Made by a program: the position numbers and the translations under genes. This document shows, one piece after another, positions 11,173-28,360 of a stretch of DNA of 64,000 nucleotides. This DNA comes from Bryobacterales bacterium F-183 (lineage in GTDB: Bacteria > Acidobacteriota > Terriglobia > Bryobacterales > Bryobacteraceae), in contig AP025252.1 in NCBI GenBank assembly GCA_016865505.2, forward strand, positions 2,480,001 through 2,544,000. Reading direction: 5' to 3'. Numbering within the stretch: position 1 is the stretch's first letter; each line of letters opens with the position of its first letter. A model generated the notes under the pieces. It was not told the origin of the DNA. It made no database searches and saw nothing but the letters and a program-made list of their open reading frames with translations.

Positions 11173-12591
11173 TCACAGACGTGGCATGTCCCGCTCATCC
11201 GTGCGTAACCGTACCGCAGGATCTCCATGTAACAGGTAATTCCGCGCATCATCGCGGACCTTCAACTGCTGTGCAGCCTCCTCGGCCAGTGCGGGATCGT
11301 CCTTCATTCGCAGCAGAGTCTCCGACAACTGTACGCTCAGCGCCGCCCAGCGCACGTTGAACTGATCGGTCGCGCTGCCCAACCGCCGTCCAGCCAGGAT
11401 CCTCTCGATGACATCCCGGAAACTCTGGTCTTCCGAAAGGCCATTCATCCGATAGCTCGAACTCCAGGCGCGGTCAATATGGCCCAGCACCGCCAGTGCG
11501 CCATTCTCCCGTCCCAGCAGGGCTTGCGGCAGACGCGCCATCATCGGTGCCGGCGAAATCTCGACCTTCTCCTGATAGTTGTACGTGTCGTATTGCGGCC
11601 AGCCCAGGCCGTAACATGCGAACACAAAGTGCACCATGCCGTGGATCTTTGCCGTCTTGTCCAAGTCCCAGGCGCCGTAGTAGTTGTCTCCCTTCGGCGG
11701 GGACATCCATGGCTCACACAAGATAGCGCCCTGCGCGATCGCCAACTGCTTGCTGTCGCGAGCCTTCAGCAGACCGTGGCTGCCTGTAAACATCAATGCC
11801 GGTGTGCCGCCATCAATTGTACCGGCGAGTACATCGTACAGCTTTTGCTTCGTGGCCTCCGGACCCACGAACGACTGCAGCTTGAACTTGTCGAACTTTC
11901 CCGGATTGGCCGCCAGCATCGGGTCAATCAGGAAGTCGCAAAGTGCCCTGCCTGCGCCATTGTCCTGTCCCTCAAAGCTCGGCGCAAAGATCACCATCTG
12001 CCGCGATGTCGCCACTTGGTTGGCTGCGTTCTCATAGGCGATTACCGAGTGAGCGTAGCGTTCATACGCTGCCGGAGTGTCCAGCCAAAGCCGTCCTACG
12101 CCCCAGTACAGGTCGAGCTCATACTGGAACTCAAAGGAGACCTCCTCCGGTCCCGCGACGATCATGACGTAGTACGGCACCCCTTTTTCGGGATCCACCA
12201 CGGCCAGGTTGGTGCCTTGCGTTACCAGCCACTGCGAAGCCGTTTGCCCGGCCGCTGGCGGAGGCAGCTCTTTGTACAAACCCCTCGCGACTCCCTCCTC
12301 CCCCACTTGGGCTTTGCGATGTTCGAGTAGCGGCGTTAGGTTCTTGCGGATCTGCGGGTCGACACTCGCGCCAAACATCACGGCCCAGCCGGCCCGTTCC
12401 AGTTTTTCCGCGTTGAACTCGCCGCCCACCATGCCGCGGCTCCCTGGGGTGCCCTTTCCTTCTAGTACATCCATCGGGACGGCCCCGGCCCCCAACTCGG
12501 CTGGAACGCCATCCAGGACAAGGGAACCGGCAAAACTGCCGTCGTCGTACACGCCCAGGGGAAGGAGCATCGGGTTTGCAGATCCTGCCAT
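11173..12591 (-). CDS. Caspase-fold (C25/CHAT-like) putative cysteine protease
   Basis: 472 residues from the ATG at 12591. A longer frame to 12828 would run into the divergent kinase gene, so I rejected it. No signal peptide is seen. A His in GSHG (residue 272) and a Cys in FACYGLG (residue 326), each after a hydrophobic strand, match the His-Cys dyad spacing of C25 gingipain-like and CHAT peptidases. AVLGHIDRAW downstream also fits that group. The first 200 residues have no domain I recognise. It is divergent from the TPR kinase, sharing a 74-base intergenic region, which suggests joint regulation. The fold is a motif-based inference; activity and substrate are unknown. Confidence 0.65.
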   Translation of the reverse strand: MAGSANPMLLPLGVYDDGSFAGSLVLDGVPAELGAGAVPMDVLEGKGTPGSRGMVGGEFNAEKLERAGWAVMFGASVDPQIRKNLTPLLEHRKAQVGEEGVARGLYKELPPPAAGQTASQWLVTQGTNLAVVDPEKGVPYYVMIVAGPEEVSFEFQYELDLYWGVGRLWLDTPAAYERYAHSVIAYENAANQVATSRQMVIFAPSFEGQDNGAGRALCDFLIDPMLAANPGKFDKFKLQSFVGPEATKQKLYDVLAGTIDGGTPALMFTGSHGLLKARDSKQLAIAQGAILCEPWMSPPKGDNYYGAWDLDKTAKIHGMVHFVFACYGLGWPQYDTYNYQEKVEISPAPMMARLPQALLGRENGALAVLGHIDRAWSSSYRMNGLSEDQSFRDVIERILAGRRLGSATDQFNVRWAALSVQLSETLLRMKDDPALAEEAAQQLKVRDDARNYLLHGDPAVRLRTDERDMPRL

Positions 12592-12665
12592 GGTGAGCCA
12601 GTGTACCGTATTACCCCTGTGGGTTATACTTCCCCTCAGTACTCGCGTGGCGGAAAGGAGCACAC
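12592..12665. promoter_or_regulatory. Divergent promoter region, protease/kinase
   Basis: This 74-base spacer lies between two divergent start codons. On the plus strand TATACT (12625-12630) is a good -10 for the kinase, with no convincing -35, and GGAAAGGAG (12652-12660) is its Shine-Dalgarno. On the minus strand TAATAC (12607-12612 complemented) is a weaker -10 candidate. Confidence 0.45.
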
Positions 12666-14867
12666 ATGGATGATTCGACGCTGCCTCTGCCGTCGCAACC
12701 ATTCCATCCTCCTCCCGAACCCGTAGCCGCCACCTGGGGTCCCTTCCGCCTGTTGCAGAAGGTTGGCCAGGGCGGCTTCGGTGAGGTTTACCGGGCCTTC
12801 GACACCAAGCTAGAGCGCGAAGTGGCACTCAAGCTACTGCTGCCTAGCGGACTCTCGCAAGTCGCAGAAGAGGACGCCCTGCTGCGCGAAGCTCGCGCCA
12901 TGGCGCGCGTACGCCACAACAATGTCGTTCCCATCTACGGTGCAGACCGCTACGACGGCCGGGTCGGCTTTTGGAGCGAGTTCATCAAGGGCAAGACACT
13001 GTCGGCCATCATAACCGCCGACGGTCCGCTAGGCCCGCGCGAGGCCGCCCATATCGGTGTTGAGGTCTGCAAGGCAGTGAGCGCTGTGCATGCAGCGGGC
13101 CTGCTGCATCGCGATATCAAGACTCGCAATGTCATGCGCGAATCCGGCGGTCGCATCTTGCTGCTGGATTTCGGGCTCACCCATGACCATACCGAGACGT
13201 TACAAGGGGGCACCGCTCCCTGCATGGCGCCCGAGTTGCTCAAAGGTGCACCCGGTACGGTTGGTACAGACCTTTATGCCGTCGGCATCATGCTCTTCAA
13301 CCTCGTGACGGGCAAGTATCCGGTGCAGGCCGACACGCTCGCCGCTCTCATCGCTGCGCACGAATCGGGCTCACGCCTCACTTTGATGGATCTGCGGCCC
13401 GATCTGCCGCAGTCCTTCGCCGCCGTCGTCGAAACTGCGATCGACCCGGACCCGCAGCGCCGCTTCAAAACGGCCGGCCAGATGATTGCCGCCTTGAGCG
13501 CGAGCACCGATCCGGGCAGCCACTCCGTAGCCTCCGCGCCGCCTGTCACTGCACCGATGCCGCCTCGCTCGGTGCCGACAGCCTGGAAATGGGCCGCCGG
13601 CGTCGCTACCCTTGCCGTATTGGGCGCAGTTGTTGCGATGTCGCCCCTTCGGCGATTCTTCGATCCGGCCCCCGTCACCTCTACCGCATCGCTCAACGCC
13701 GGGGTCGCCGAGGAATATCAGAAGGCGCATGACCTGCTCGAGCACTACTACCGGCCGCAGGCAGTAAGCACCGCCATGGCGATTCTCTCCAAGATCGTTG
13801 AGAAAGAGCCGAACTTTGCGCCCGCCTTCGCCGATCTCGCCCGTGCCAACGCCTTGGAACTGGTGCAGCAAAACGACGAGAAGTACTTCGCTCCCGCGGA
13901 GAAGGCCGCCCGGCGGGCCCTGCAGATCAATCCGGGTCTCGCGTCGCCGTATGTGAGTCTCGGCATTCTTCATACGCGAGCCCGCAAGTACGACCTCGCT
14001 GCGCAGGAGCTGGGAGAAGCTCTGCGGCTCGATCGTTTTCACGCTGGCGCTCACGGCGCGCTCGCCGATCTGATGCGTCATCAGGGCCGCGATGCTGAGG
14101 CGGAGGAGATGCTGCAGAAGGGTGTCAAACTCGCGCCGGACGACTGGGGCATCCTCACAATGCTCGGCGAGCATTATATGGATACCGGCAAGTTGGAGCA
14201 GGCTCTCGAACTCTATCGAAGGGCCGTGGCTTCCGCGCCGGACAATCCGAGGGCACTCAACAATCTCGGTGTCGCGAGCCGCATGGCGAACCGGTTTGAG
14301 GAAGCCGAAACGGCCTTTCGACGTGCCGTCGAACTGGACCCCGGCGCCTATCATCGCTACCGCAACCTCGGGCAATTGATGATGGAAAGCGGCAAGTACG
14401 ACGAGGCCCAGCGCCTGCTGGAGCGCGCCATTGAGCTGCGGCCTAGCCACTATCGCGCCTGGGGATTTCTGGCTGAGGTGTACCGGCTGTCGGGTGCGCC
14501 ACCGGCCAAGGCCGAAGAAGCCTGCCGCAAGGCGATCGCCGCCAGTGAAGAGCAACTCCGCCAACGGCCCAACGATCACTTCCTGCTGGCCGACGTCGGC
14601 TACTATTACGCGGCACTGGGCAATGGGCAAAAGAGCCTGCCGCTGCTCGAACGAGCGGCGCTCTTTGCACCGAACAATCCTGAACTGCTTTACATCGTCG
14701 CGCTCGGCTATGAGACCTTGCATCGTCGCGAGGACGCGCTCAGGACGCTCCGCGCGGCCGTCGCAGCGGGACTTTCCGTTCCGTTGCTCAATCGAGTTCC
14801 CCAATTTACGGCGCTACGCAGCGACCGTCGCTATCGAACGCTAACTGAGTCGAGTCACAACAAGTAA
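12666..14867 (+). CDS. Ser/Thr protein kinase with C-terminal TPR domain
   Basis: 733 residues with a strong Shine-Dalgarno. The kinase domain spans about 25-280: glycine loop GQGGFGEVY (35-42), catalytic Lys56 in VALKLL, HRD at 148-150, DFG at 168-170 and MAPE near 187-190. All residues expected of an active Hanks-type kinase are present. After a proline-rich linker a single transmembrane helix (about 306-326, WKWAAGVATLAVLGAVVAM) places the C-terminal TPR array (about 345-725, nine or more units) outside the cytoplasm. It is divergent from a caspase-fold protease and is followed 11 bases later by a proline-rich microprotein gene. Probably a membrane sensor kinase; targets unknown. Confidence 0.92.
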   Translation: MDDSTLPLPSQPFHPPPEPVAATWGPFRLLQKVGQGGFGEVYRAFDTKLEREVALKLLLPSGLSQVAEEDALLREARAMARVRHNNVVPIYGADRYDGRVGFWSEFIKGKTLSAIITADGPLGPREAAHIGVEVCKAVSAVHAAGLLHRDIKTRNVMRESGGRILLLDFGLTHDHTETLQGGTAPCMAPELLKGAPGTVGTDLYAVGIMLFNLVTGKYPVQADTLAALIAAHESGSRLTLMDLRPDLPQSFAAVVETAIDPDPQRRFKTAGQMIAALSASTDPGSHSVASAPPVTAPMPPRSVPTAWKWAAGVATLAVLGAVVAMSPLRRFFDPAPVTSTASLNAGVAEEYQKAHDLLEHYYRPQAVSTAMAILSKIVEKEPNFAPAFADLARANALELVQQNDEKYFAPAEKAARRALQINPGLASPYVSLGILHTRARKYDLAAQELGEALRLDRFHAGAHGALADLMRHQGRDAEAEEMLQKGVKLAPDDWGILTMLGEHYMDTGKLEQALELYRRAVASAPDNPRALNNLGVASRMANRFEEAETAFRRAVELDPGAYHRYRNLGQLMMESGKYDEAQRLLERAIELRPSHYRAWGFLAEVYRLSGAPPAKAEEACRKAIAASEEQLRQRPNDHFLLADVGYYYAALGNGQKSLPLLERAALFAPNNPELLYIVALGYETLHRREDALRTLRAAVAAGLSVPLLNRVPQFTALRSDRRYRTLTESSHNK

Positions 14868-14878
14868 AGGATGAGCTC

Positions 14879-15076
14879 ATGTACCTATCAATGACCCCTG
14901 CCCCGGTGCCGCCGCCAACCTGGATCTGCGCCGGTAGCAACCCGAACATCGATCACCCGACGGAACCCGCACCGGACATCGAATTGCCGGAAGAGCCGGC
15001 GGACAGTACGCCCGCTCCGTCCTCAGAACCGGCACCTGCGGCGCCATCCCCCGAAGAAACCGCCCCGCAAGTCTAG
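14879..15076 (+). CDS. Proline-rich acidic microprotein
   Basis: 65 residues, 18 of them Pro and 10 Asp/Glu; only one Cys and one Trp (TWICAG, near residue 15). AAAGG (14866-14870) sits 8 bases before the ATG and overlaps the kinase stop, so translation right after the kinase is well supported. The stop overlaps the stop of the opposing caspase gene (CTAG). No known family, no signal peptide and no predicted fold. Repeated PAP/PEEP/SEPAP units suggest a disordered peptide. It could be a kinase substrate (S/T-P sites) or an adaptor; both are inference. It may be lineage-restricted. Confidence 0.6.
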   Translation: MYLSMTPAPVPPPTWICAGSNPNIDHPTEPAPDIELPEEPADSTPAPSSEPAPAAPSPEETAPQV

Positions 15077-17958
15077 CGGCCGGGTAACAGAGGGATCGGC
15101 CGGCTGGCATCGTACACAAAAGCGTCCGTTGTAAAGCGGAATCCAAACGGCTTGCCCAATTCGTTCGCGGCGTACGGTACGGGTGGATGCTGGTCTGGAT
15201 ACTGTTCGTAAGACCAGCCGAGTCCACCCACCAGCAAGCCTCCGCCGCCCTTTACGAATCTGTCGATGAGCGGCACATGCCGTGTGGCAAAGTCCTCTGG
15301 CGGAAACCAGTCGCTCGCGTACCAAAGAACACCTGCACCCTGGAGGTCTTTCTCCAGGGTGTCCGGTGTTGTCATCTCGAACGACCATTGGCGGCGTCGG
15401 ACGAACTTCACCACCTTCTTCATTTCGCTCCAGCGGTGGAAGCTGCCCTCCCAAAACAGAAGGCGCATACCGTTGCCATCGACGTGCGGGCCGGCATCCG
15501 CCGCGAGCCAGCGTAGCGCGTTCTCGGCAAACAGCAAGTTGTCGCTCTTGGGCGTGATCTCACCGTCTATCGGCAGGCCATCGTGCGCGTACACCAGCAC
15601 GCGGCCCGCTCCATAATGACGGGCCACGATGAAGTCGCGAGACTGGGCTGGCTCCTGGTAACATTGCACCTCAGCGGGCAAGCGGCTGATGGGAATCCAC
15701 TGCTGTCCGCTATCGCCTGCGTTTACAGATATACTGCCCGGTTGTCCGTTGGTAAGGTGCAAGTCGAGCGACGCAAAGAGGCTGAGCAGTACGCGTACCT
15801 TCTCGCGCTCGGCGGCTCGTGCCTGATCCTCCCGGCGCTTTACACTTTCTTGGATGAACAGGCGTTCTGCAGCGTTCAACCACGTCTGCGGATGCGCAAG
15901 TTCCTGCTCCGCCACAGGCAAGTACGGGTTGTCGTCCCATAGCAATCCAATATCGCCGGAACGCGCAAAATCGTTCGCCGCGAGGTTCAACTTCGCACCA
16001 AGAATCAACTTGTCCCGGCCGATCTCCTGAACCCATTCCTGCAGCCGCTTCCAGCCGCGCACCAGCATGTCGTGCGCTGGCTCCAGGTAATCCTCCCCTT
16101 TTACGATCAGGCGCGCATCAATCAGCTTCTCCACGACAGCCGCCACTAGCGGCCTCTCCGCGTCTGTGTACTCGAGGTCGGCCATCGCGACACGCTTGCT
16201 CGCCAGATCTGCCTCCACCGATACTAGCCGCAACAGGACCTTGCGCATCATCTGCTGCTCGGCGGGTGGCAGCTCCTTATAGAGTCCATCGGCTCTGGCA
16301 CGCAAGGCTCCGCGTACGCCGCCCAGTTGGTCGTAGTCCTCTTTACGGAGCGCGCGATCGCCTCTCCCGCTTGCACGGTATGCTTCATACAGTTCGTTCA
16401 GCGCAAAGGAAAGCAGCGGCAATGCGCCGGGCGACTGTACAACGTCCGAGATGATCTCCTGCACGAGCGACGCCGGCTCAAACAGCAACACCTCCTGGCT
16501 GGCCGGCATCACGATGGCGTCTTCGAGTTCCTCCAGGCTGAACGGCGGCACGGTACAGCGGCCTGCCATCCAGTCCGTTCTCAGTTTTCCGGAGATCAGT
16601 TGCGTCTCAAAGTCCGATCGTACGGTCGCAATCACTCGATGAATGCTCTGGTCCTGCTCGAGGACCTGGAGCAGCCGCGCCTGGAACTGCTTGCGTTCGT
16701 CCGCATCGGTGCAGCGCGTCATCACCTCTTCGAGCTGATCGACCACCAGCACTGTCCTCTGGCGCCCACCAGGGACCGGCTTCGCTGCGTCACCTAGAGC
16801 TTGCTCCAGTGCTGCCAATGGATGGGCACCCGGACGGATCACCGGCAGAATACGAAATCCATCCCGGCGCAAGCGTGGCAGTAGCCCGGCTTTGATCACC
16901 GAAGACTTGCCCACACCGGTAGGCCCTGTGATCAGCAGGAGCTTATTCGCCCGCCCTTTGTCGTAGAGCTCGCGGACCACCCGATCGCGTCCGTAGAAAA
17001 GCGGTTGGTCGTCTTCCTCAAACGCCGCCAGACCCTTGTACGGACTCTGCCGCGGAGTCGGCGGTAGGTTGAGCCGGTGTCGGGGGTGCAGAAAAACGAA
17101 TTCGCCTTTGTCATGTTTCTTCAGAGGGAAGAACCCAGGGGTCTGCCGCAGTTCCTGTCCGGCCTCGATGGTCTTCGGTTCAATCCGGTCCCGGATGTAG
17201 GCATAGAGCTCAGTGGCGGTGATGACGCCGTCGCCCTCGCGTTCACCCTTGATGTCAGCCTCGCCAGCCAATCCCTCAAACAGCGCCCTCGCAAATGGGG
17301 AGTGCAGCGTCGTCTGGTCGCCAGCCCCACTCACACCCCGATCTCCAATCGCTTTTCCATCGAGTACGTCCAGTGCCTTTTGGTCGTAAGCAGCCGAGGT
17401 GATGACCTGCCAGGCCGGGTCCATGACAAAGCGATCAAACCGCTCCTTATAGATGCGCTTGGGCACAGCGGAGCGAACATCGCGAAACCGGCTAGCCCAT
17501 TGGAAGGCGCCAGAAAAGCAGCAATCCAATACCAGCAACAGATGACGGCAGGGCAGGCTGGTGAGCGCGTCCTGCAGTTCGCTCATCGGAATAAAGGTGG
17601 ACTTGACGTCGTCCGGGTCGCCGTCCAATGGCACCAGATAGCCGGCCGGACCATCATCGCCGTCGGCGGCTATGCCATGCCCGGCAAAGTAAAAGAGGAC
17701 GCGGTCGTTTTCCCCCACTTTCTCTCGAATGATGGTGTGAAGCAGTTCGCGGATCTCAGCACCTGTCGCTTCCACCAGCGGTGGATGCACGTCAAAGTGC
17801 TGCTGCGTTTTGAGGACATCGGCGAGCCGCAAGGCATCGTCGACGGCGGTCTTGAGCCAGGACACATTCTTGTACCGGTTGATGCCGATCACAAAGGCGT
17901 GATGTCGCTCAAACGGCAACTGCGTTCGCGGGTCGTTGATCATTACGTCGTCAGCCAT
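15073..17958 (-). CDS. Caspase (C14)-nSTAND1 ATPase protein with GATase-like C terminus
   Basis: 961 residues from ATG at 17958 (MADDVMIND); the frame is open to 18135, but upstream residues look non-coding. The caspase domain spans about 18-290, with His94 in FAGHG and Cys147 in DCCFSG, the metacaspase-type dyad. The nSTAND1 NTPase begins with SPYKGLAAFEE ... FYGRD (305-325); Walker A GPTGVGKS is at 345-352 and Walker B-like VLVVDQLEE near 403-411. The last 200 residues (GAGRVLVYAHDG ... GGGLLVGGLGWSYEQYP) resemble the GATase-like module of M60/TCAF-type proteins. No membrane segment is seen. Known caspase-STAND proteins sense a signal and activate proteolysis, often in conflict or cell-death systems; here the trigger is unknown. 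Confidence 0.85.
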   Translation of the reverse strand: MADDVMINDPRTQLPFERHHAFVIGINRYKNVSWLKTAVDDALRLADVLKTQQHFDVHPPLVEATGAEIRELLHTIIREKVGENDRVLFYFAGHGIAADGDDGPAGYLVPLDGDPDDVKSTFIPMSELQDALTSLPCRHLLLVLDCCFSGAFQWASRFRDVRSAVPKRIYKERFDRFVMDPAWQVITSAAYDQKALDVLDGKAIGDRGVSGAGDQTTLHSPFARALFEGLAGEADIKGEREGDGVITATELYAYIRDRIEPKTIEAGQELRQTPGFFPLKKHDKGEFVFLHPRHRLNLPPTPRQSPYKGLAAFEEDDQPLFYGRDRVVRELYDKGRANKLLLITGPTGVGKSSVIKAGLLPRLRRDGFRILPVIRPGAHPLAALEQALGDAAKPVPGGRQRTVLVVDQLEEVMTRCTDADERKQFQARLLQVLEQDQSIHRVIATVRSDFETQLISGKLRTDWMAGRCTVPPFSLEELEDAIVMPASQEVLLFEPASLVQEIISDVVQSPGALPLLSFALNELYEAYRASGRGDRALRKEDYDQLGGVRGALRARADGLYKELPPAEQQMMRKVLLRLVSVEADLASKRVAMADLEYTDAERPLVAAVVEKLIDARLIVKGEDYLEPAHDMLVRGWKRLQEWVQEIGRDKLILGAKLNLAANDFARSGDIGLLWDDNPYLPVAEQELAHPQTWLNAAERLFIQESVKRREDQARAAEREKVRVLLSLFASLDLHLTNGQPGSISVNAGDSGQQWIPISRLPAEVQCYQEPAQSRDFIVARHYGAGRVLVYAHDGLPIDGEITPKSDNLLFAENALRWLAADAGPHVDGNGMRLLFWEGSFHRWSEMKKVVKFVRRRQWSFEMTTPDTLEKDLQGAGVLWYASDWFPPEDFATRHVPLIDRFVKGGGGLLVGGLGWSYEQYPDQHPPVPYAANELGKPFGFRFTTDAFVYDASRPIPLLPGR

Positions 17959-18717: not shown

Positions 18718-18751
18718 CAACAAACCCGACTAACGATTGGACCCGACGCCC

Positions 18752-21700
18752 ATGCATACCCGTAGTGTGTCTACGCGATTGTTTTTTGCTCTTGCCATTG
18801 GATTGGCCTTTCTTCCCAAGGTCTTTGGGCAAGTTATCGAATTGTCCCCCGTCACATCCCCTTCGGCAGTTCAGGCGAATCTAACGGATGCCACCATCAC
18901 CGCTCTTCGCGGCATCCCTGCCGGTACGACGGCGGCTCAGTTGGTGGCGCGGATCACACCGCAAAACCCACTGGACGGGGCGGCCATCGATGCTCCTGTC
19001 ACCTTGTTGCAGACCATTGGATCGCGTACAAACCTCCGGTTTCGCGTACCCGCCGGGTTCCTTGTCCAACGGCCTGTCGCCGCTTATGTCGAAATCGTCA
19101 ACGCTAGCGGCGCACCACCAATCTCTACGGGTCTTCGGGCACGAACCGTGATCCTGCCGCCACCATCGATTGAGAGTGTTTGGCAGCCTTCCGCCGTCCG
19201 GGGTACGACCATTGACGTAACAATCAACGGACTGTACACGGCGTTCCCGGCAAACCCCGCCAGCATGACGCTGAACTTTGGAGCAGGCATTACTGCTACT
19301 CCGAAGCTGTGTGCCAGTGGCGCGTCCACCACGCAGGTATGCGCCACGGTGGTGGTCAGCGCAGGTTCTGCAACTGGCCCGAGGAACGTCAGTGTCACCT
19401 ATGGCGCCGTTACAGCAACACTTGCCAACGGCTTTGTCGTGACATCCGCCGCCTCGAACCCGTTAACGGTGAATGGCGGAACCATTCGGCAGGGCGAAAC
19501 CAGGGACATCACCTTCGGCTTTGGCATCGGCACAACCTTGCCGCAGACATTGGCCATGAACTTTGGCAGCCAGGTGTTTGGACCCGCCAATGGCCAACCC
19601 GTTTCCATCACACAAGGTACAGCAACAACAGCAGCTACAGCCGTCATTCGCGTTACGGCATCCGACCTCGCTGCTGTCGGACCTCGCAACATCATGTTCC
19701 TCGCGGGCGGTGACGTCTACACGCTGAACAGCGGACTCACCGTGACCTCGTCGGATGCGTCCATATCGCTCAATACGAATACGTTCACACAAGGTGAGTC
19801 TCGTACGGTTCAGATTGTTGGCCGCAACACGCACTTTGTCCAGAATCTGACCGCCGTCAGTTTTGGAGCCGGTATCACGGTTGGAAGCGTTGACGTGCAG
19901 GACCAAACCCTCTCCGTACAGATCGCTGTATCCCCAACAGCCGCTGCCGGACCTCGCTCCGTCAGTGTGACTACCCAAGGCGAAGCGCCGCTGCCCGTCA
20001 GCGCGGTTGTGGTCGCCGGGTCACCGCGCATCTGCAACGTTACCCCGTCCTACGCGACGCAAGGCACATCCGGAACCCTTACATTGCAGTTCTGCTTTAT
20101 CAACCCTGCAGCTAGTGCAACAGTCACCATTCCAGGTAACGTCACCACCGGCGCGCGTACGGTGTCTGGCGCTAACTTGAGCGTTCCTTTCTCAGTGGCA
20201 AGTACCGCCCCTACAGGTGGCCGCACAGGTGTGGTGAGCTTTGGTGGTGTCAACTATGACTTCCCGTTCACCGTGATTCCCAGCACCGCTGCACTGGTTT
20301 CCGCGTGCCGGGAACCGGGCTGTGAGTCTCCAGTCACGAGCTTCCTGGGCGACTCCTTCACCCTACGAGTCACCGGTAGCAATACGAACTTCGTACAAGG
20401 TACGACGCAAGTTTCTCTAACCCTGCCGCCGGTCGCATCCCTAGCGGTCCGGCGGGTAACCGTGATTCGCGCCACGGAACTCCTGGTGGATGTCCAGACG
20501 CTGAGTTCTGCCGTGCCCGGCTTGTACCGCCTTGACGTCGTGACCGGCGGTGAATCGGTATCGCTGGCGAACGTCGTACGAGTGTCGCCGACGCCGCAAC
20601 TCACCATCACTCCATCTTCGGGACTGCAGGGAACAAGCGTCCCGGTAACCTTCAACATCGACAATGGCGGTATTCTGCCGACGTCCTGCCCAGCCATACA
20701 GGTGCCGATCAGTGGCGTACCGCCGGGAGTGACCTGCCAGGGGTACGTACGATCTAACCCGTCACAGGCAACGGCAACTTTTGTGATCGATCAGTACGCC
20801 GCCGTGGGACCCCGAATCCTACAGGCAGGCGGTTCTCAGGCGACATTCAGCGTCGTCGCCAGTCCTGCTTCACTGATCTCCGTTGTGCCCAACACAGCGC
20901 CCGCCGGTACCTCCGCGACATTGGTGCTGACCGGATCGCAAACACACTGGTGCCAAGGATCGGTCAGCGTATGCCCGTACCCCACTGCATTGACGTTCTT
21001 CTCATCCTCGATCGTCGTGGACTCGCTCACGGTCAACAGTCCCACACAGGCCACCGCGAATGTACGCATACTCTCGACTGCAGTACCGGGCCTGTACTCC
21101 GTACAAATGGCGACCGGAGGCGAAGTTGTCAGTCTCTTCAACGGATTTCGGGTGACTGGACAGGTGGTCGTTCCGCCGTCCCTTACTAGCGCCTCACCTT
21201 CCACCGGTGTGCAAGGCCAGACGCTTGATGTCGTACTGAGCTTTGCAAACCTCGTAACCCCCATCACTGCCGCCACGCCTGTCTCGGCCAACTTCGGGCC
21301 GGGCATCACCACCGTTTCCACCGCGTTCGTTTCCGCCAACTCTTTCCGTGCCACGCTCACGGTCAGTCCGCTGGCAGCAATTGGCCCACGCACGGTGTCC
21401 ACAACCGTCAATGGTGCAGCCATCAGTGGTTCGGCATTTATAGTCAACCGCGGCCCCGCAGCGATCCAGACTCTCAATCCCAGTTCAGCGCGGCAGGGCC
21501 AAAGCAATGTGACCGTGCAGATCACCGGGAACTCGGGTACGCACTTCGCCACCGGCCAAACCACCGCGGACTTTGGACCTGGGATCACTGTCAACTCTCT
21601 TGTGATCCAATCTCCGACGTCGGCGACGGCGCAGATCACCCTCGCGTACAGCGCAACTCTTGGAGCTCGTACAGTCCGGCTTACTACGGGTGGCGAACTA

Positions 21701-24700
21701 GCCGATAGCGTGGGCGTCTTCACCGTGATGGAACGCAATCCGGTGGTGCTATCCGTTTCGCCAGCCCGCGCACGCCAAGGAGAGACGGTTGTAGTTACAG
21801 TGCTCGGCGAAGCGACCAGCTTCGGCAGTACGACAGTGCCCGATTTCGGCCCTGGCATCACAGCAACTCTGCTGACTACTCCCGCGCTGGAGCGTGCCAC
21901 AGTTCGACTCGTGATTTCTCCTACCATCGCCATTGACCAAGGGATCTGCGCAAGGTCCATACGGATGACCACCGGCGCGGAGATTGCGAGCAGTCCGTCG
22001 AGCGCGTTTTGCATCGACGCCGGTAGCGCTGCCATATCGAGCGTCGCCCCTGCCTCAGTTCCCCAGGGCGGTAGCGAGACTGTGACGGTGAACGGTACCA
22101 ACACGAACTTCCAACAGGGCGTAACGACGGTGAACTTCGGGTCTGGCATCACTGTGGGTACAGTTCTTGTCCAATCGCCGGTAGCTCTCACGGCGCAGAT
22201 TGCAGTAGCGCCGAACGCGGCTCCGGGTCTCCGCAGTGTTCGCGCGACCACCTTGGGCGAAGCCGCCAGCGGCAACAATCTCTTCACCGTTGGCGCGGGT
22301 ACGCCGATCCTCACGCAGGCAAGCCCAGCTACCCTGCCGCAAGGGGCCGGACCCACTGTCGTAACACTCACCGGACAATTTACGACGTGGCAGCAAGGCG
22401 TCACCACTGCGACATTCGGCGCAGGAGTTACGGTAGACAGCCTGACGGTGGATAGTCCCACCAGCGCCCGTGCAACAGTTCGCGTCAGCCCCACCACGAA
22501 CATCGGACCCCGGATTGTCACCGCCACTACTGGAGGTCAGATCGTCTCCGCGCCAGTGTTCAGCATCGTCACTGGCCCGGCCGCCATCTCCACCCTCTCT
22601 CGAGTCAGTGCGCTGCAAGGTGAGACGAATGTCGAGATTGAAGTCACCGGCGTCAATACGCACTTTCAGCCCCTGGTAACGAGTGTGGGACTACGGCAAG
22701 TAGTGAGTCCGCTTGCATCCCTTGCACCGTCTTCGGTGGTGATCACCAGCGAGACCAGCTTGAGAGCCACCTTCAGTATTCCTGCCAATCAGGCAGTGGG
22801 CGCCTACACGATCACGGCGACGACGGCGGGTGAAGTAGCCGAACGGTCCGCGGCCTTCAGTGTGAATCCTGGTGTCCCATCGATCAGTTCGCTGAGTCCC
22901 TCTGCCAGCGCTGCGGGGACCCAACTGGCCGTCACCATCAGCGGAACGTTCACCGTATGGCAGCAAGGCGTAACGGCAGTTAGCTTCGGTGCGGGCATCA
23001 CTGTCGACAATGTAGCCGTACAAGGCCCCTCGTCGATCATCGCGAACATCACCATTGCGGCGAACGCGACGGTCGGTCCTCGAACCGTGTCGGTCACCAC
23101 TGGAGGGCAAGTGCTCACGAGTTCCTTCAGTGTTACTCCAGCAGCGATTCTACTTTCACTGAACCCAACCGCGATGCTCCGCGGGCAAACGCGATCCATC
23201 ACGATTACGGGCCAACAAACGCAGTTCGCACAGGGTGTGACGACCGTGGCCTTCAGCGGCACTGGTGTCACCGTCAACTCGGTCACCGTATCGAGCGCCA
23301 CTCAGCTTGTCGCAAATGTCACCGTGGCGCAGGGTGCTGCCGTCGGTCCTCGCACGATCACTGTAACCACAGGTTCCGAAGTACTCACCGGGCTTTCTCT
23401 TCCCATCGCCACAGGCATGAACTCGATCTCGCCCGTCAGCGGATCGCGTGGTCAAACGCTGGAAGTCACCATCAACGGCGCATCGATCACCAGTTTCGTA
23501 CAGGGCCAGTCCCTGCCGGCATTTGGGCCCGGCATCACCGTGAACTCCGTACAGGTGCTTTCGGCCAGTCAACTCACTGCAAACATCACCATTGCCGCCA
23601 ACGCAGAACTCACCGCCCGTGATGTCGTCGTCACCACCGGCCAGGAATTGGTTTCTGGACCTTCGGCAATCGGTGGAATCACGACCTTTACGGTCACCGG
23701 TGCGCCGATGTTCTCGCTTGATCCGACGTCCGCCCAGCAAGGGCAGCAAGGCCTTACCGTCAACATCAACGCACAGAATTTGCCGCTTGCCGCTGGCGAC
23801 ACGTTCATCAGCTTTGGCGCTGGAATCACGGCGGGCGAAGTACCGGTGAACGTGACGAGTCCGCAAACCGGCAGCGTCACAATCAATGTCTCACCCACTG
23901 CGGTTACCGGCCTCCGTCAGGTAACGCTCCGTACGGGTGGGGTGTTCTACACGGTCAACAACTTCAATGTCACGCCGAGCGCCGCGCGGTTGCTCACGGT
24001 TACGCCTGCATCCGCCAATCAAGGAGATGTGGTGGACGTCACGGTCGTCGGGCAGAACACGAACTTTGCACCCACCACCGTGTTCGCGTTTGGGCAGGGA
24101 ATTGCCGCGACCCTGCTTGGCGTCGATAGCGTTACGCAGGTACGGCTTCGGCTTACGATCGATCCCTCCGCGCCAGTGGGTCCAAGAAGTCCCGTGTTCA
24201 CTACTGGCGGCGAGAACGCATCGGGCACCGGCCTGTTTACCGTCACGGCAGGAACGCCAACACTGCTTTCGGTAACGCCAGTCTCCGCACAGCAAGGCGA
24301 GACCGTCGCAGTCACGATCCTTGGCCGCTTCACCAACTTTGACAGCGCCTCCGCGCCGAACTTTGGTCCTGGAGTGACGGTGAACCAGTTTGTGGTGAAT
24401 TCACCGACGAGCATCACGGCCAACGTCACAGTGCTGCCGCGCGCCTTTCCGGGCACGCGCAGCGTCGCAGTATCGGGCGTTTCCACTTCGCTGCCAAACG
24501 CGTTTACCATCGTCGCAGGCCCGGCGGCGGTCTCCAGCCTCAACCCAAATACTCTGCAGCAGAACCGTACCGCTTCCATCACGATCAACGGCGTGAACAC
24601 CCATTTCGCCGATGGGCTCACGGTTGCGAACTTCGGTCCCGGCGTTACCGTCAACTCACTCACGGTCACGTCGCCCATCCTAGCTACAGCGTCCATTACG

Positions 24701-27700
24701 GTGTCGCCGACGGCCGCTGTTGGGTTCCGCAGCATCACCATGACCACGGAGGGTGAAACTGCGTCGATCCTGAACGGGTTCAATGTTCTGCTGGGCGCAG
24801 GTGTGATCGATAGCGTTACGCCCAACACCGCGCCCCAGGGTGCGACAACCTCCGTCACGGTCACGGGATTCTTTCCCGGTTTGGTCGGGCAGACGGTAAC
24901 GGCGTCTTTCTCCGGTCCAAGTGACATCACCGCTTCGGTGTCGTCGGTCACTCTCACGCAAATCACCCTCAGCGTTCAAGTGCTCGGCTATGCCGCAAGG
25001 ACGCCCCGCAACCTGGCGCTGACCAACGGTACCGACCCTGTTTCCAGAGCGAACGCGATCACCATCGTCGCTGGTGCGGCCAGCATTACAGCTATCGCGC
25101 CAACAGCCGGCAAGCAGGATGAGACCGTGGACATCACCGTTACAGGCTCGGGTACGAGCTTTGGCCAGGCACCTTCGGCAACCACAGCGATGCTCATTGG
25201 TGCCTCCGGCGTGAATATCGTTTCCGTCACTCCTCAGACACCACAACAAGCGGTGGTGCGCCTGCAGATTTCGGATACAGCTTCCATCGGTACGTTTCCG
25301 CTCCGGCTGTTCAGTGGCGATGAGATTGCCACCTTTACACCCGGCTTCACGATTCAACCCGGCGCGCCAGTGATCCTCTCGGCCACTCCAGCCAGCGGAC
25401 GCCAAGGCGAAACGGTATCCAACTATGTGATTGCTGGAAAGTTCACGCATTTCACCACCGGCTCCGCGATCAATCTCGGCACCGGCATCACCGCCACCGT
25501 ACAGTCCGCCAGCCCCACTCAGTTGATCGCCCAGCTCTCAATTGCAGCCAACGCCACAGCCGGTGTACGCGATCTCACCGTCACGACTGGGGCCGAGGTG
25601 GTTACGCTACCCGGTGCCTTCACGGTCCAGCCGGGCACTGCGGTTCTCACCACAGTCAGTACGAACATCGCACCCCGCCAAGGTCGAACAGTTGTGTTCA
25701 CGGTGAACGCAAACTTCACCAGTTTCTCCAGTGCCACTCCGCCGACTGTGAATCTGGGGACCGGCGTTACAACCCAAAGTGTGGCCGTCGATAGCGCGAC
25801 CCGCTTGTCCGTTACAGGCCTCATCAGCCCGACTACGACACTGGGACCGCGCAGTGTCACCGTGAATCCGGGTGCGTTGACCCTGAGCGCGGCATATGAA
25901 GTTACAGCAGGAGACGCGAGCATCACCGTGGCTCCCACCACCGTACGCCAGGGCGACAGTAACTTCGAGATTCAGATTGCCGGCGTTAGTACAAACTTCT
26001 CGCAAAGTACGACCGCTCTGTCGCTGTCCGGGGCTGGCCTCAACCTCGGCAACTATACGGTGAACAGCGCGACTTCGATCACGTTAGCCGTAAACAGCGT
26101 CAGCGATACCGCGCCGCTTGGATCACGCACTCTGACCATCACCACAGGTGGCGAGGTCGTTTCCGCGACCCTGGACGTCCTCGCAGGGCTTCCGGTGATC
26201 TCGTCCATCGCGCCCACATCCGGAACCCAGGCGAGTGCCGTGCCCGTCACCATCACAGGCCGATTCACGACATTCACTGCCGGTTCCACGATTGGACTTG
26301 GCGCGGGCATCACAGCGGTGATCAACTCGGCAAGTCCAACGGTGTTGCAAGCGACTCTCACCATTTCCCCGACCGCGGCAAAGACAACCAGGCCCCTGAC
26401 CGTAGATGGCCTCACCTTGGCCAACGCCTTTACGGTTACGCCCAGCCCCGCACGAATCACAAGCGTCACGCCGGCACTCGGTGCCCAGGGTGCGGCATTG
26501 GCCGTGCAAGTAGACGCAGCCGATACAAACTTCGCCAACGGCATCACAACTGCGACCTTTGGCGCCGGCATCACCGTCAACTCTGTGACTGTCGTCAACG
26601 TGACGCGCGCCAACGTGAACATTACAATCGCGGGCAACGCCGCCACTGGTGTACGGACGCCCATTCTCACCACCGGCGGGGAGGAGGCCTCTCTCGTCAA
26701 CGCCTTTGTGGTCAGCGTCGGCCAGCCAGAGATCACCTCCATCACTCCTTCCATCGGAGCGGCGAACAGCACGGTCTCGAACATTCAAGTCACGGGTGTC
26801 AACCTTACTGGCGCTACCTTCAGTCTCGGTGGATCCTTTGTGATCCCACCCGCCGCGCTGGGTACGGCATTACAGGTGGGCGGCGAGGTTCTGGAGGTCA
26901 CAAATCTCACCGCGACGTCCGCAACCTTGCGGATCCGATTTGGACCGTTCGTAGGCATCCATCCATTGATTGCGACAACGGCAGCCGCGTCATCAGCAAC
27001 CGAAGTAACACCAGGAAATCGATTTCAGATCTTTGAGCCTGCCGGTTATCAGATCGCGTCGCCGACCACGGTTGTGAACAGCAGCTACACATCGCTGGAC
27101 CCTGTGAGTTCCTTGACCTACGCCGTCGCTGCGCCAGTCAACGTAGTCAACAGCAGCTACACATCTCTGGACCCCGTCAGTTCGCTGACCTACGCCGTTT
27201 CCGCACCAGTGAATGTTGTGAATAGCAGTTTCACGTCGCTCGATCCCGTCTCGTCGCTGACCTACGCTTTCGCACCGCCGGTCAACGTCGTGAATAGCAG
27301 CTACACGTCGCTGGATCCGGTTACGTCGCTGAACTATGCTGCGTCGCATGCGGTACACGTTCGCAATCTGTCCGCTCCAGTGATCACGGCTGCGCCGGAC
27401 ACACACCCTGAGGACACAGCTACGTCTGCAGCGCGCAACTCAGGTGCGCCGCTCCGCGAAACGGCGTACGCAGGTCAGATGCTGCGCGTTCGGGCGGACA
27501 TTCCCAACGGCGTCCGCATCAACGAAGTTCTCGTGTACGTCAATGGGGCGAAGATGGACGACGTTCTTCTGCCGCCCTACGAGGCAGCAATCACCGTGCC
27601 TTCCGGAGTCGACGAGTTGGAGATCCGCTCCGTGGTTCGCACGGAAGCGGGCGAAATATCCTCCGATCCGTACTGGGTTCGCGTACTGCCGGACCCCGGC

Positions 27701-28360
27701 ACGTCGGACTTGCAAATTCAGGTTCGCGACGGTGATGACAAGCCAGTCGCCGATGCAGACCCAAGCCTAAGGCTCGCTGGGTTCGCTGCGGAGCACTTCC
27801 GCTTCGACCAGCCCATAACGGCTATGCCGGACCTCGCCGCGGATCGCAAACCGGACGCGACAGGCTTTGCGGCGATGCTGTACTTCCTCCCGCTTGGTCA
27901 GGACCCGCTTGGTACAGGTGCCGTTCGCGATACCGTATCGCGCTATCGTGCGTCGCTCAAGGTCTGGGAGCCGGGCGAGTACGAGTTCGCACTGCGTGGT
28001 TCCACCGGGGCACAACTCCGGGTGGGAGGCCGCGAGATTGAAAACGGCGCGGGCCCCGTGTCGTTACCCGCAGGCGAAGTGGAATTGGAAGTCCTCCACT
28101 TCCGCTCAGTGGACGCCTCACCGCAACTACAACTGCTGTGGCGTACGAAGCCGAGCGAGCCGTTCACGGCCATTCGGCCGGAGTACCTTCGGACACCCGC
28201 AGTTGATACCCGCATTGTTCCGCTGGCAGCGTCCGGACTTGAGTTGCGGGCGGCCACGCAAAGTCCCTGGTCTGGCGAGACGCTCGTGTCTGCCGAAGAC
28301 CGCAAACAGATCATCATTCTCCGCGTCAGTGCACGCGGACAAAAGCAGGAAAAGGAGTAA
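18752..28360 (+). CDS. Giant IPT/TIG-like repeat surface protein with PA14 domain
   Basis: 3202 residues from ATG 18752 (signal peptide MHTRSVSTRLFFALAIGLAFLPKVFG). Residues about 136-2750 form some 28 beta-sandwich-like units of about 93 residues. Each has a start like SVTPxSAxQGxT, a middle FGxGITVNS and an end such as VGPRTVTVTTGGE. Two subtypes alternate over much of the array (GxNTxF units and GxFTxF/W units). Then come four near-identical 24-residue repeats (VVNSSYTSLDPVSSLTYA-based, about 2774-2869), an Ig-like region (about 2900-2990) and a PA14-like domain (about 3007-3150). The protein probably extends from the cell as an adhesin or matrix fibre and may bind glycans through PA14. 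It ends TAATG against the next gene. Confidence 0.85.
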   Translation: MHTRSVSTRLFFALAIGLAFLPKVFGQVIELSPVTSPSAVQANLTDATITALRGIPAGTTAAQLVARITPQNPLDGAAIDAPVTLLQTIGSRTNLRFRVPAGFLVQRPVAAYVEIVNASGAPPISTGLRARTVILPPPSIESVWQPSAVRGTTIDVTINGLYTAFPANPASMTLNFGAGITATPKLCASGASTTQVCATVVVSAGSATGPRNVSVTYGAVTATLANGFVVTSAASNPLTVNGGTIRQGETRDITFGFGIGTTLPQTLAMNFGSQVFGPANGQPVSITQGTATTAATAVIRVTASDLAAVGPRNIMFLAGGDVYTLNSGLTVTSSDASISLNTNTFTQGESRTVQIVGRNTHFVQNLTAVSFGAGITVGSVDVQDQTLSVQIAVSPTAAAGPRSVSVTTQGEAPLPVSAVVVAGSPRICNVTPSYATQGTSGTLTLQFCFINPAASATVTIPGNVTTGARTVSGANLSVPFSVASTAPTGGRTGVVSFGGVNYDFPFTVIPSTAALVSACREPGCESPVTSFLGDSFTLRVTGSNTNFVQGTTQVSLTLPPVASLAVRRVTVIRATELLVDVQTLSSAVPGLYRLDVVTGGESVSLANVVRVSPTPQLTITPSSGLQGTSVPVTFNIDNGGILPTSCPAIQVPISGVPPGVTCQGYVRSNPSQATATFVIDQYAAVGPRILQAGGSQATFSVVASPASLISVVPNTAPAGTSATLVLTGSQTHWCQGSVSVCPYPTALTFFSSSIVVDSLTVNSPTQATANVRILSTAVPGLYSVQMATGGEVVSLFNGFRVTGQVVVPPSLTSASPSTGVQGQTLDVVLSFANLVTPITAATPVSANFGPGITTVSTAFVSANSFRATLTVSPLAAIGPRTVSTTVNGAAISGSAFIVNRGPAAIQTLNPSSARQGQSNVTVQITGNSGTHFATGQTTADFGPGITVNSLVIQSPTSATAQITLAYSATLGARTVRLTTGGELADSVGVFTVMERNPVVLSVSPARARQGETVVVTVLGEATSFGSTTVPDFGPGITATLLTTPALERATVRLVISPTIAIDQGICARSIRMTTGAEIASSPSSAFCIDAGSAAISSVAPASVPQGGSETVTVNGTNTNFQQGVTTVNFGSGITVGTVLVQSPVALTAQIAVAPNAAPGLRSVRATTLGEAASGNNLFTVGAGTPILTQASPATLPQGAGPTVVTLTGQFTTWQQGVTTATFGAGVTVDSLTVDSPTSARATVRVSPTTNIGPRIVTATTGGQIVSAPVFSIVTGPAAISTLSRVSALQGETNVEIEVTGVNTHFQPLVTSVGLRQVVSPLASLAPSSVVITSETSLRATFSIPANQAVGAYTITATTAGEVAERSAAFSVNPGVPSISSLSPSASAAGTQLAVTISGTFTVWQQGVTAVSFGAGITVDNVAVQGPSSIIANITIAANATVGPRTVSVTTGGQVLTSSFSVTPAAILLSLNPTAMLRGQTRSITITGQQTQFAQGVTTVAFSGTGVTVNSVTVSSATQLVANVTVAQGAAVGPRTITVTTGSEVLTGLSLPIATGMNSISPVSGSRGQTLEVTINGASITSFVQGQSLPAFGPGITVNSVQVLSASQLTANITIAANAELTARDVVVTTGQELVSGPSAIGGITTFTVTGAPMFSLDPTSAQQGQQGLTVNINAQNLPLAAGDTFISFGAGITAGEVPVNVTSPQTGSVTINVSPTAVTGLRQVTLRTGGVFYTVNNFNVTPSAARLLTVTPASANQGDVVDVTVVGQNTNFAPTTVFAFGQGIAATLLGVDSVTQVRLRLTIDPSAPVGPRSPVFTTGGENASGTGLFTVTAGTPTLLSVTPVSAQQGETVAVTILGRFTNFDSASAPNFGPGVTVNQFVVNSPTSITANVTVLPRAFPGTRSVAVSGVSTSLPNAFTIVAGPAAVSSLNPNTLQQNRTASITINGVNTHFADGLTVANFGPGVTVNSLTVTSPILATASITVSPTAAVGFRSITMTTEGETASILNGFNVLLGAGVIDSVTPNTAPQGATTSVTVTGFFPGLVGQTVTASFSGPSDITASVSSVTLTQITLSVQVLGYAARTPRNLALTNGTDPVSRANAITIVAGAASITAIAPTAGKQDETVDITVTGSGTSFGQAPSATTAMLIGASGVNIVSVTPQTPQQAVVRLQISDTASIGTFPLRLFSGDEIATFTPGFTIQPGAPVILSATPASGRQGETVSNYVIAGKFTHFTTGSAINLGTGITATVQSASPTQLIAQLSIAANATAGVRDLTVTTGAEVVTLPGAFTVQPGTAVLTTVSTNIAPRQGRTVVFTVNANFTSFSSATPPTVNLGTGVTTQSVAVDSATRLSVTGLISPTTTLGPRSVTVNPGALTLSAAYEVTAGDASITVAPTTVRQGDSNFEIQIAGVSTNFSQSTTALSLSGAGLNLGNYTVNSATSITLAVNSVSDTAPLGSRTLTITTGGEVVSATLDVLAGLPVISSIAPTSGTQASAVPVTITGRFTTFTAGSTIGLGAGITAVINSASPTVLQATLTISPTAAKTTRPLTVDGLTLANAFTVTPSPARITSVTPALGAQGAALAVQVDAADTNFANGITTATFGAGITVNSVTVVNVTRANVNITIAGNAATGVRTPILTTGGEEASLVNAFVVSVGQPEITSITPSIGAANSTVSNIQVTGVNLTGATFSLGGSFVIPPAALGTALQVGGEVLEVTNLTATSATLRIRFGPFVGIHPLIATTAAASSATEVTPGNRFQIFEPAGYQIASPTTVVNSSYTSLDPVSSLTYAVAAPVNVVNSSYTSLDPVSSLTYAVSAPVNVVNSSFTSLDPVSSLTYAFAPPVNVVNSSYTSLDPVTSLNYAASHAVHVRNLSAPVITAAPDTHPEDTATSAARNSGAPLRETAYAGQMLRVRADIPNGVRINEVLVYVNGAKMDDVLLPPYEAAITVPSGVDELEIRSVVRTEAGEISSDPYWVRVLPDPGTSDLQIQVRDGDDKPVADADPSLRLAGFAAEHFRFDQPITAMPDLAADRKPDATGFAAMLYFLPLGQDPLGTGAVRDTVSRYRASLKVWEPGEYEFALRGSTGAQLRVGGREIENGAGPVSLPAGEVELEVLHFRSVDASPQLQLLWRTKPSEPFTAIRPEYLRTPAVDTRIVPLAASGLELRAATQSPWSGETLVSAEDRKQIIILRVSARGQKQEKE
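27071..27358 (+). repeat. Four 72-bp tandem repeats inside the giant gene
   Basis: Unit starts at 27071, 27143, 27215 and 27287 are exactly 72 bases apart. Each encodes VVNSS(Y/F)TSLDPV(S/T)SL(T/N)YA plus a six-residue variable linker. Differences are mostly synonymous (GTTGTG, GTAGTC, GTCGTG), with a few substitutions. A partial fifth unit (HVRNLS) follows. Confidence 0.9.

Follow-up and report, generated by a model that had tools for sequence, protein, structure and literature searches.

Does the acidobacterial locus under study, in which a cysteine protease, a protein kinase, a small proline-rich protein and a caspase-NTPase fusion lie side by side, encode a phospho-controlled proteolytic switch, as the initial annotation had suggested, and which of its genes belong together? 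The window, i.e., the whole stretch of 64,000 nucleotides that was analysed (C1:2480001-2544000 of the 6.28 Mb genome of a soil-type bacterium), carries the C25 (gingipain-type) cysteine protease P0001 (472 residues) on the minus strand at 11173..12591. A divergent gap of 74 bp between the two start codons (12592..12665) separates it from the Hanks-type, receptor-like Ser/Thr kinase P0002 with TPR repeats (733 residues) on the plus strand at 12666..14867, followed on the same strand by the Pro/acidic microprotein P0003 (65 residues, 14879..15076). The caspase (C14)-nSTAND1-C-terminal domain protein P0004 is encoded on the minus strand at 15073..17958, and its stop codon overlaps that of the microprotein tail to tail by 4 nt (15073-15076). 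All four open reading frames are present in the ORF list and the sequence as first described, and the residue numbering given for the putative active sites is correct, namely His272 and Cys326 of the protease counted from the start at 12591, and His94 and Cys147 of the caspase from the start at 17958. A repetitive ORF of 3207 residues (18737-28360), which looks like a large surface protein, adjoins the island.

P0001 matches the Pfam family Peptidase_C25 (PF01364) with an E-value of 1.7e-6 and 28 bits (cut-off 23). C25 is the sole Pfam family listed for it at E <= 0.1, with no match to the CHAT family (PF12770), and some of its relatives (L033 and L084; L numbers denote our loci) fall below the C25 cut-off. 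The natural start at 12591 agrees with the homologues, and no signal peptide was seen by eye. The AlphaFold model, computed from an alignment of 10 sequences, reached a pLDDT of 76.9 and a pTM of 0.85. The predicted structure matches the gingipain fold over about 320 residues, with a Z-score of 25.8 to RgpB (r.m.s.d. of 3.8 for 319 residues) and 25.4 to Kgp, and scores up to 17.2 against separases and up to 16.4 against TPR-CHAT. Of the earlier designation "C25/CHAT-like", the C25 part is thus retained, but the CHAT part is not, because the gingipains outscore TPR-CHAT. We rejected P0001 as a CHAT protease, C25 in Pfam and the gingipains in structure (Z 25-26) being the better matches. A profile made from the alignment A1 did not reach the gingipains among the PDB sequences.

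The catalytic dyad is well preserved. His272 and Cys326 are invariant in all ten rows of A1, and among 101 non-redundant protease rows, from which rows with identical cores had been removed, the histidine is found in 100 and the cysteine in 97, in agreement with the His/Cys pair as first described. Some loci were obtained twice via different collections, e.g., L028 and L056. The four copies lacking the cysteine are two tandem copies in L061 and those in L192 and L195, the latter also without the histidine; three of them form long branches, L192 being the exception. These copies, which in L061 adjoin intact ones, are possibly pseudo-enzymes. Named homologues come from at least eight phyla (Acidobacteriota, Pseudomonadota, Chloroflexota, Cyanobacteriota, Planctomycetota, Gemmatimonadota, Nitrospirota, and Myxococcota), with 158 stretches encoding a relative, 80 of which were kept. 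Within the taxonomic family of the window, 31 of 237 genomes encode the protease. Five of 72,556 plasmid records contain a relative, three of these already annotated as "C25 family cysteine peptidase". No relative was detected at E <= 1e-5 in 50,697 phage records.

As for the kinase, P0002 matches the Pfam kinase family at 1.9e-39 and contains TPRs; the kinase domain spans approximately residues 28-268 and the TPR repeats approximately residues 465-640. The motif alignment identified the GxGxxG, Lys, HRD, DFG and APE elements, confirming the active-looking kinase of the initial annotation. The hydropathy profile revealed a hydrophobic segment at residues 310-328, preceding the TPRs, which is likely to span the membrane as judged from its sequence. 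The kinases of L029 and L028 have a low anchor score.

We located 39 distinct places of the protease within the taxonomic family, 36 of which were mapped (G475:C764, G128:C437 and the G124 remnant were left out). The kinase is the next gene to the protease in 15 of these 36 loci (the window, L028, L029, L037, L164, L166, L172, L173, L176, L177, L178, L179, L182, L184, and L185), where "next gene" disregards the microprotein and mechanical ORFs, and the other 21 have no adjacent kinase. The kinase of L037 is fragmented, and L177 shows the TPR end only. Two further kinases lie at a distance, one 4.7 kb from the protease within the same gene run (L036) and one approximately 7 kb away on the opposite strand (L180). 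Given the 43 kinases that the window genome encodes, and supposing a total of 5,300 genes, a binomial test for 14 of 36 adjacencies (without L177) gives a p value of 2e-16, which is optimistic owing to shared ancestry. Kinase and protease are co-directional in 14 of the 15 adjacent loci, the divergent window being the exception. The divergent promoter that the two window genes were supposed to share was not supported: a scan of the 74-bp gap found 0 sigma-70-like sites, and the arrangement is absent from the 14 other loci.

A phylogenetic tree of 40 kinase domains placed P0002 in a 10-row clade of system kinases only (support 100/100); 20 of the 42 other kinases encoded by the window genome were included, and all of them lie outside this clade. 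A second clade contains five further system kinases, and five of the 20 (L087, L100, L119, L127, and L194) group among ordinary kinases. The window protease belongs to a clade of eight in the tree of the proteases (support 98), seven of them kinase-linked; kinase-linked rows are also scattered elsewhere in this tree (4 changes). Searching with P0002 itself identified 22 P0002-like kinases at E <= 1e-90. Eleven of them reside in a protease locus, including L180 at 7 kb, and for the other eleven, the sequence retrieved around the kinase, which is short in some cases, shows no C25 protease.

The start codon of the microprotein P0003 is located 11 nt past the kinase stop codon, with AGGA upstream, and the protein appears disordered by eye. 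Its core, AGSNPNIDHPTEPAPD, is common to kinase-linked microproteins in other genomes (L028, L166, and L029). Shuffle tests of P0003 against the microproteins of L166, L028 and L029 resulted in p values of 0.0005, 0.0030 and 0.0025, respectively, the pair with L166 having a z of 7.0 in composition shuffles. In a frame test, the ORF-to-ORF comparison scored 101, against 55 or less in the other eight frame pairs. P0003 itself was not detected in the 149 other genomes searched. A small ORF of approximately 35-240 residues follows 21 of the 22 P0002-like kinases, the exception being L239, and is kept at 10 of the 11 kinases without a protease; the microprotein therefore belongs first to the kinase. 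When 20 of the 21 microproteins (L182 was left out) were compared in 190 pairs using composition shuffles, 13 had a relative from another kinase locus at z >= 6, and those of L028, L029, L184, L185, L233, L235 and L236 had no partner at this threshold.

Several of these small proteins are built from repeats: DDKPSFS in L164 and L172, TKPSFSDG in L230, a FPIDP-type in L037 and L176-L179, and SLSLPVELPGG in L182 (239 residues). Less repetitive forms of 71-152 residues occur in L036, L110, L173, L184 and L240. Two pairs of microproteins are under purifying selection, with a dN/dS of 0.25 for the pair of L176 and L179 (excess of synonymous over nonsynonymous changes, p 6e-6) and 0.18 for the pair of L176 and L177 (p 9e-8); synonymous sites are saturated for the pair of L177 and L179. 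The existence of a proline-rich microprotein gene, claimed initially for the window, is hence borne out by homologues and by selection in related loci. We discarded ORF length as its basis, as p is 0.26 in the window and ranges over 0.05-0.52 per locus, with a combined value of 0.015 over 14 loci. An ORF of at least 43 residues follows 13 of 14 system kinases and four of 18 other kinases (Fisher p 8e-5). The threshold of 43 residues was itself chosen on these data, and the sequence available behind the control kinases was shorter (154-439 nt); with a 36-residue cut, the control count is six of 18.

The surroundings of the protease in other genomes were counted within 6.5 kb of the 101 non-redundant rows, and all counts are lower bounds because many contigs are short. 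CHAT proteins are found near at least 61 of the 101 rows, nSTAND1 near at least 43, alpha/beta-hydrolase-like proteins near at least 39 (a label given by one sub-threshold Pfam match, E 0.017), SIR2 near at least 30, kinases near at least 20 and gasdermins near at least 10. Three main types of locus occur: CHAT-NTPase-HEAT with the hydrolase-like protein and the protease (type I); CHAT-SIR2 with nSTAND1, the hydrolase-like protein and the protease, e.g., in Cupriavidus, Pseudomonas, Citrobacter and Buttiauxella (type II); and kinase, microprotein and protease, to which CHAT-SIR2, nSTAND1 and gasdermin may be added (type III). The compact four-gene set of CHAT-SIR2, nSTAND1, hydrolase-like protein and C25 protease was also seen as such (L084, L098, L081, L102, L071, L076, and L080). 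Its hosts are Citrobacter, Buttiauxella, Pseudomonas, Burkholderiaceae and Ramlibacter, and it looks like a transferable defence operon.

The protease neighbours in L058 (267 residues) and L030 (265 residues) are bacterial gasdermins: they match the PADLOC gasdermin model at E-values of 5.5e-58 and 1.5e-69, respectively, both are above the NCBIfam cut-off, and the former matches PDB entry 7n51 at 1.9e-38. A gasdermin is present in seven of the 36 family protease loci. In both L164 and L172, the kinase comes first, followed by the repeat microprotein, the C25 protease, the gasdermin, CHAT-SIR2 and nSTAND1; this run also includes a protein of approximately 350 residues. In L230 (2038-5361), a P0002-like kinase, an 88-residue microprotein with TKPSFSDG repeats and a gasdermin are consecutive, with no protease between them, and L240 has two caspase-domain genes divergent from its P0002-like kinase (34% identity). 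The proposed association with conflict and cell-death systems was upheld by the nSTAND1, CHAT-SIR2 and gasdermin genes in the neighbourhoods of the relatives. A linked gasdermin was rejected as the effector of the window locus, as the NCBIfam model had no match in the window genome at E <= 10.

P0004 contains a C14 caspase domain (Pfam 1.8e-16) with His94 and Cys147 and an nSTAND1 domain (3.3e-95) with the Walker A motif GPTGVGKS and the Walker B motif LVVDQLEE. Two genes of the window genome exceed the nSTAND1 cut-off, and P0004 is the only strong match. Using the C-terminal part as the query against 347 genomes, 346 of them other than the window genome, we obtained full-length relatives in two genomes of one genus, and a match limited to 62 residues in a third genome. 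Both full-length relatives (L201:7195-12911 and L202:5035-12382) are from another acidobacterial family, retain the His, the Cys and the Walker A motif, and have a C-terminal domain conserved with P0004. Each of them has a convergent kinase gene of another type (propeller), and no C25 protease lies within the approximately 20 kb fetched around them. The C-terminal domain of P0004 was modelled poorly (pLDDT 57.9); Foldseek gave no match at E <= 0.001, Pfam none, and the PDB sequences nothing credible. It may resemble TCAF/ThuA-type domains.

The co-occurrence of kinase, microprotein and protease is far in excess of chance, and together the three are a real, conserved unit. The four-family co-occurrence originally put forward therefore stands for these three, but all four genes together were found in no other locus among those searched. 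Membership of P0004 is plausible because it is the sole strong nSTAND1 protein here and nSTAND1 recurs near the protease elsewhere.

Because relatives of the gene set adjoin known cell-suicide genes, the locus probably represents a bacterial switch for self-destruction or defence in a form not yet described. The observed gene content, conservation, co-occurrence and intact catalytic motifs, together with the predicted fold of the protease, lead us to lean modestly towards a module for cell death or defence that acts by regulated proteolysis and in which the kinase-microprotein pair controls the protease. This preference is based on the kinase-protease adjacency, the kinase and protease clades, the conservation and selection of the microprotein, and the gasdermin and nSTAND1 neighbours. 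The kinase, with a cytosolic kinase domain, a likely membrane anchor and a TPR sensor, would form a signalling pair with the microprotein, and this pair would control a cytosolic protease of the gingipain fold. Most likely, the kinase would phosphorylate or release the microprotein, freeing or recruiting the protease. We infer an action of the kinase on the microprotein from their near-constant pairing, the disorder seen by eye, and the Ser/Thr and acidic repeats in several lineages; for gating or recruitment of the protease by the microprotein, the evidence is gene order. In some homologous loci, the bacterial gasdermin would be the probable target of the protease, and CHAT-SIR2 and nSTAND1-WD40 proteins would serve as additional sensors and effectors. 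In the window, the caspase-nSTAND1 fusion may fill the role of nSTAND1 as a second sensor, and, since no gasdermin was detected, the executioner of a presumed death outcome may be the caspase or an unlinked substrate. The phospho-controlled switch of the initial annotation fits this anatomy of the locus. A more specific version, doubtful in our view and drawn by analogy, is a securin-like switch: the receptor kinase would phosphorylate a fast-evolving, multivalent, disordered microprotein that restrains the separase/gingipain-fold protease, whose release would fire the gasdermin in relatives or the caspase-NTPase in the window. Bacterial cell death would then be reached via a protease pathway gated by phosphorylation.

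Several observations count against such a module, and other readings draw on them. No gasdermin was detected in the window genome, no second four-gene locus was found, 21 of 36 protease loci lack an adjacent kinase, five system kinases are placed among ordinary ones, and the window is divergent, unlike the other 14 loci; moreover, a hydrophobic segment that really anchors the kinase would leave the TPR part pointing away from the cytosolic microprotein. The kinase-microprotein pair may also work without the protease, given the eleven P0002-like kinases with none in their stretch. It is accordingly conceivable, if unlikely, that the pair is an independent signalling unit (e.g., for the envelope or growth) lying loosely beside defence genes, the protease and the caspase-nSTAND1 protein being separate defence genes in the same island. 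The retention of the small ORF at 10 of those eleven kinases and the different strands of the window genes would suit this arrangement, but it fits poorly with a kinase next to the protease in 15 of 36 loci, which holds for two kinase clades, and with the pair that directly adjoins a gasdermin in L230.

Tandem repeats suggest another role for the microprotein, which instead of acting as a gate might be cleaved by the protease as a repeat-containing substrate or decoy, or might be the precursor of a modified peptide. Several of the repeats have Lys or Arg near their end (L176 and L177), DDKPSFS recurs in L164 and L172, and the repeats are preceded by a short N-terminal part in which L176, L177 and L179 resemble one another. 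We nevertheless consider this improbable, as the microprotein tracks the kinase and not the protease, even where no protease is nearby, and the selected neighbours scanned included no peptide-modifying enzyme. Chance co-location of four unrelated genes in one acidobacterial region is highly improbable. Kinases are common (43 in the genome), the orientations are divergent and convergent, and the four-gene locus is unmatched elsewhere, but the adjacency statistics, the dedicated kinase clade, the microprotein homology and the nSTAND1 association speak against it. For kinase, microprotein and protease, chance is largely refuted by these data; for the caspase-nSTAND1 gene, it is still possible.

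If the regulated module is correct, it would join bacterial receptor kinases, which are best known for controlling growth and the envelope, to caspase-clan death proteases. Cytosolic gingipain-type proteases, seen here in at least eight phyla, would moreover take their place among the proteases of conflict systems. The activation of bacterial gasdermins and of their proteases is described as a major open question in the excerpted text of PMC9612521, and a kinase-microprotein pair that is conserved and coupled to proteases of this kind would offer a concrete input, namely phosphorylation.

How does the locus compare with known systems? The gingipains RgpB and Kgp share with P0001 the fold over about 320 residues, the Pfam C25 match and the His/Cys dyad, but P0001 has approximately 11-14% identity in the aligned part, no signal peptide by eye and a cytosolic-type gene context. 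Securin is the disordered, phosphorylated gate of separase. Separase-securin and the TPR-CHAT of Craspase are related to P0001 in their protease fold, with Z-scores of up to 17.2 and 16.4, respectively, a likeness that we use as an analogy. Bacterial gasdermin systems combine a caspase-like or other protease with bGSDM (Johnson et al., 2022, via the excerpts of PMC9612521). They resemble our loci in the caspase-clan protease beside bGSDM in some relatives, the STAND-type partner and the death-type logic, but the window genome has no detected gasdermin, the protease is C25-type, and a receptor kinase and a microprotein are added; the word "kinase" does not occur in PMC9612521. The CARD-NLR gasdermin systems, as excerpted from PMC13236601 (citing Wein et al., 2025), likewise combine a STAND/NLR-like ATPase with a protease, and their death effector varies or may be absent, but the window locus has a kinase and a microprotein, and CARD was not listed in general Pfam scans of the window proteins. 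In the immune operons of PMC13373217, a kinase acts via a transcriptional repressor according to the abstract, a logic unlike that of the proposed module.

In the excerpts of PMC8195603, PMC10907252, PMC13236601, PMC9612521, PMC12881547 and PMC7159879, caspases, STAND, CHAT, kinases and gasdermins appear as parts of conflict or death systems, and the same excerpts hold no description of a C25 protease with a kinase and a microprotein. Among the matches listed in the CC-licensed literature, a scope outside which Johnson 2022 and Wein 2025 fall, no paper on a kinase-microprotein-C25 module was found, so that the three-gene unit is undescribed as far as our searches go. The terms "C25" and "gingipain" are absent from the texts of Kaur et al. 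(2020) and Kaur et al. (2021). These authors treat the conflict systems of multicellular prokaryotes, whose listed components include caspase, STAND-type NTPases and Ser/Thr kinases (Kaur et al., 2020, 2021; excerpts of PMC8195603). These excerpts describe no microprotein pair, but the window locus has all three components in common with these systems, and the three-gene unit belongs within the known class of proteolytic conflict systems.
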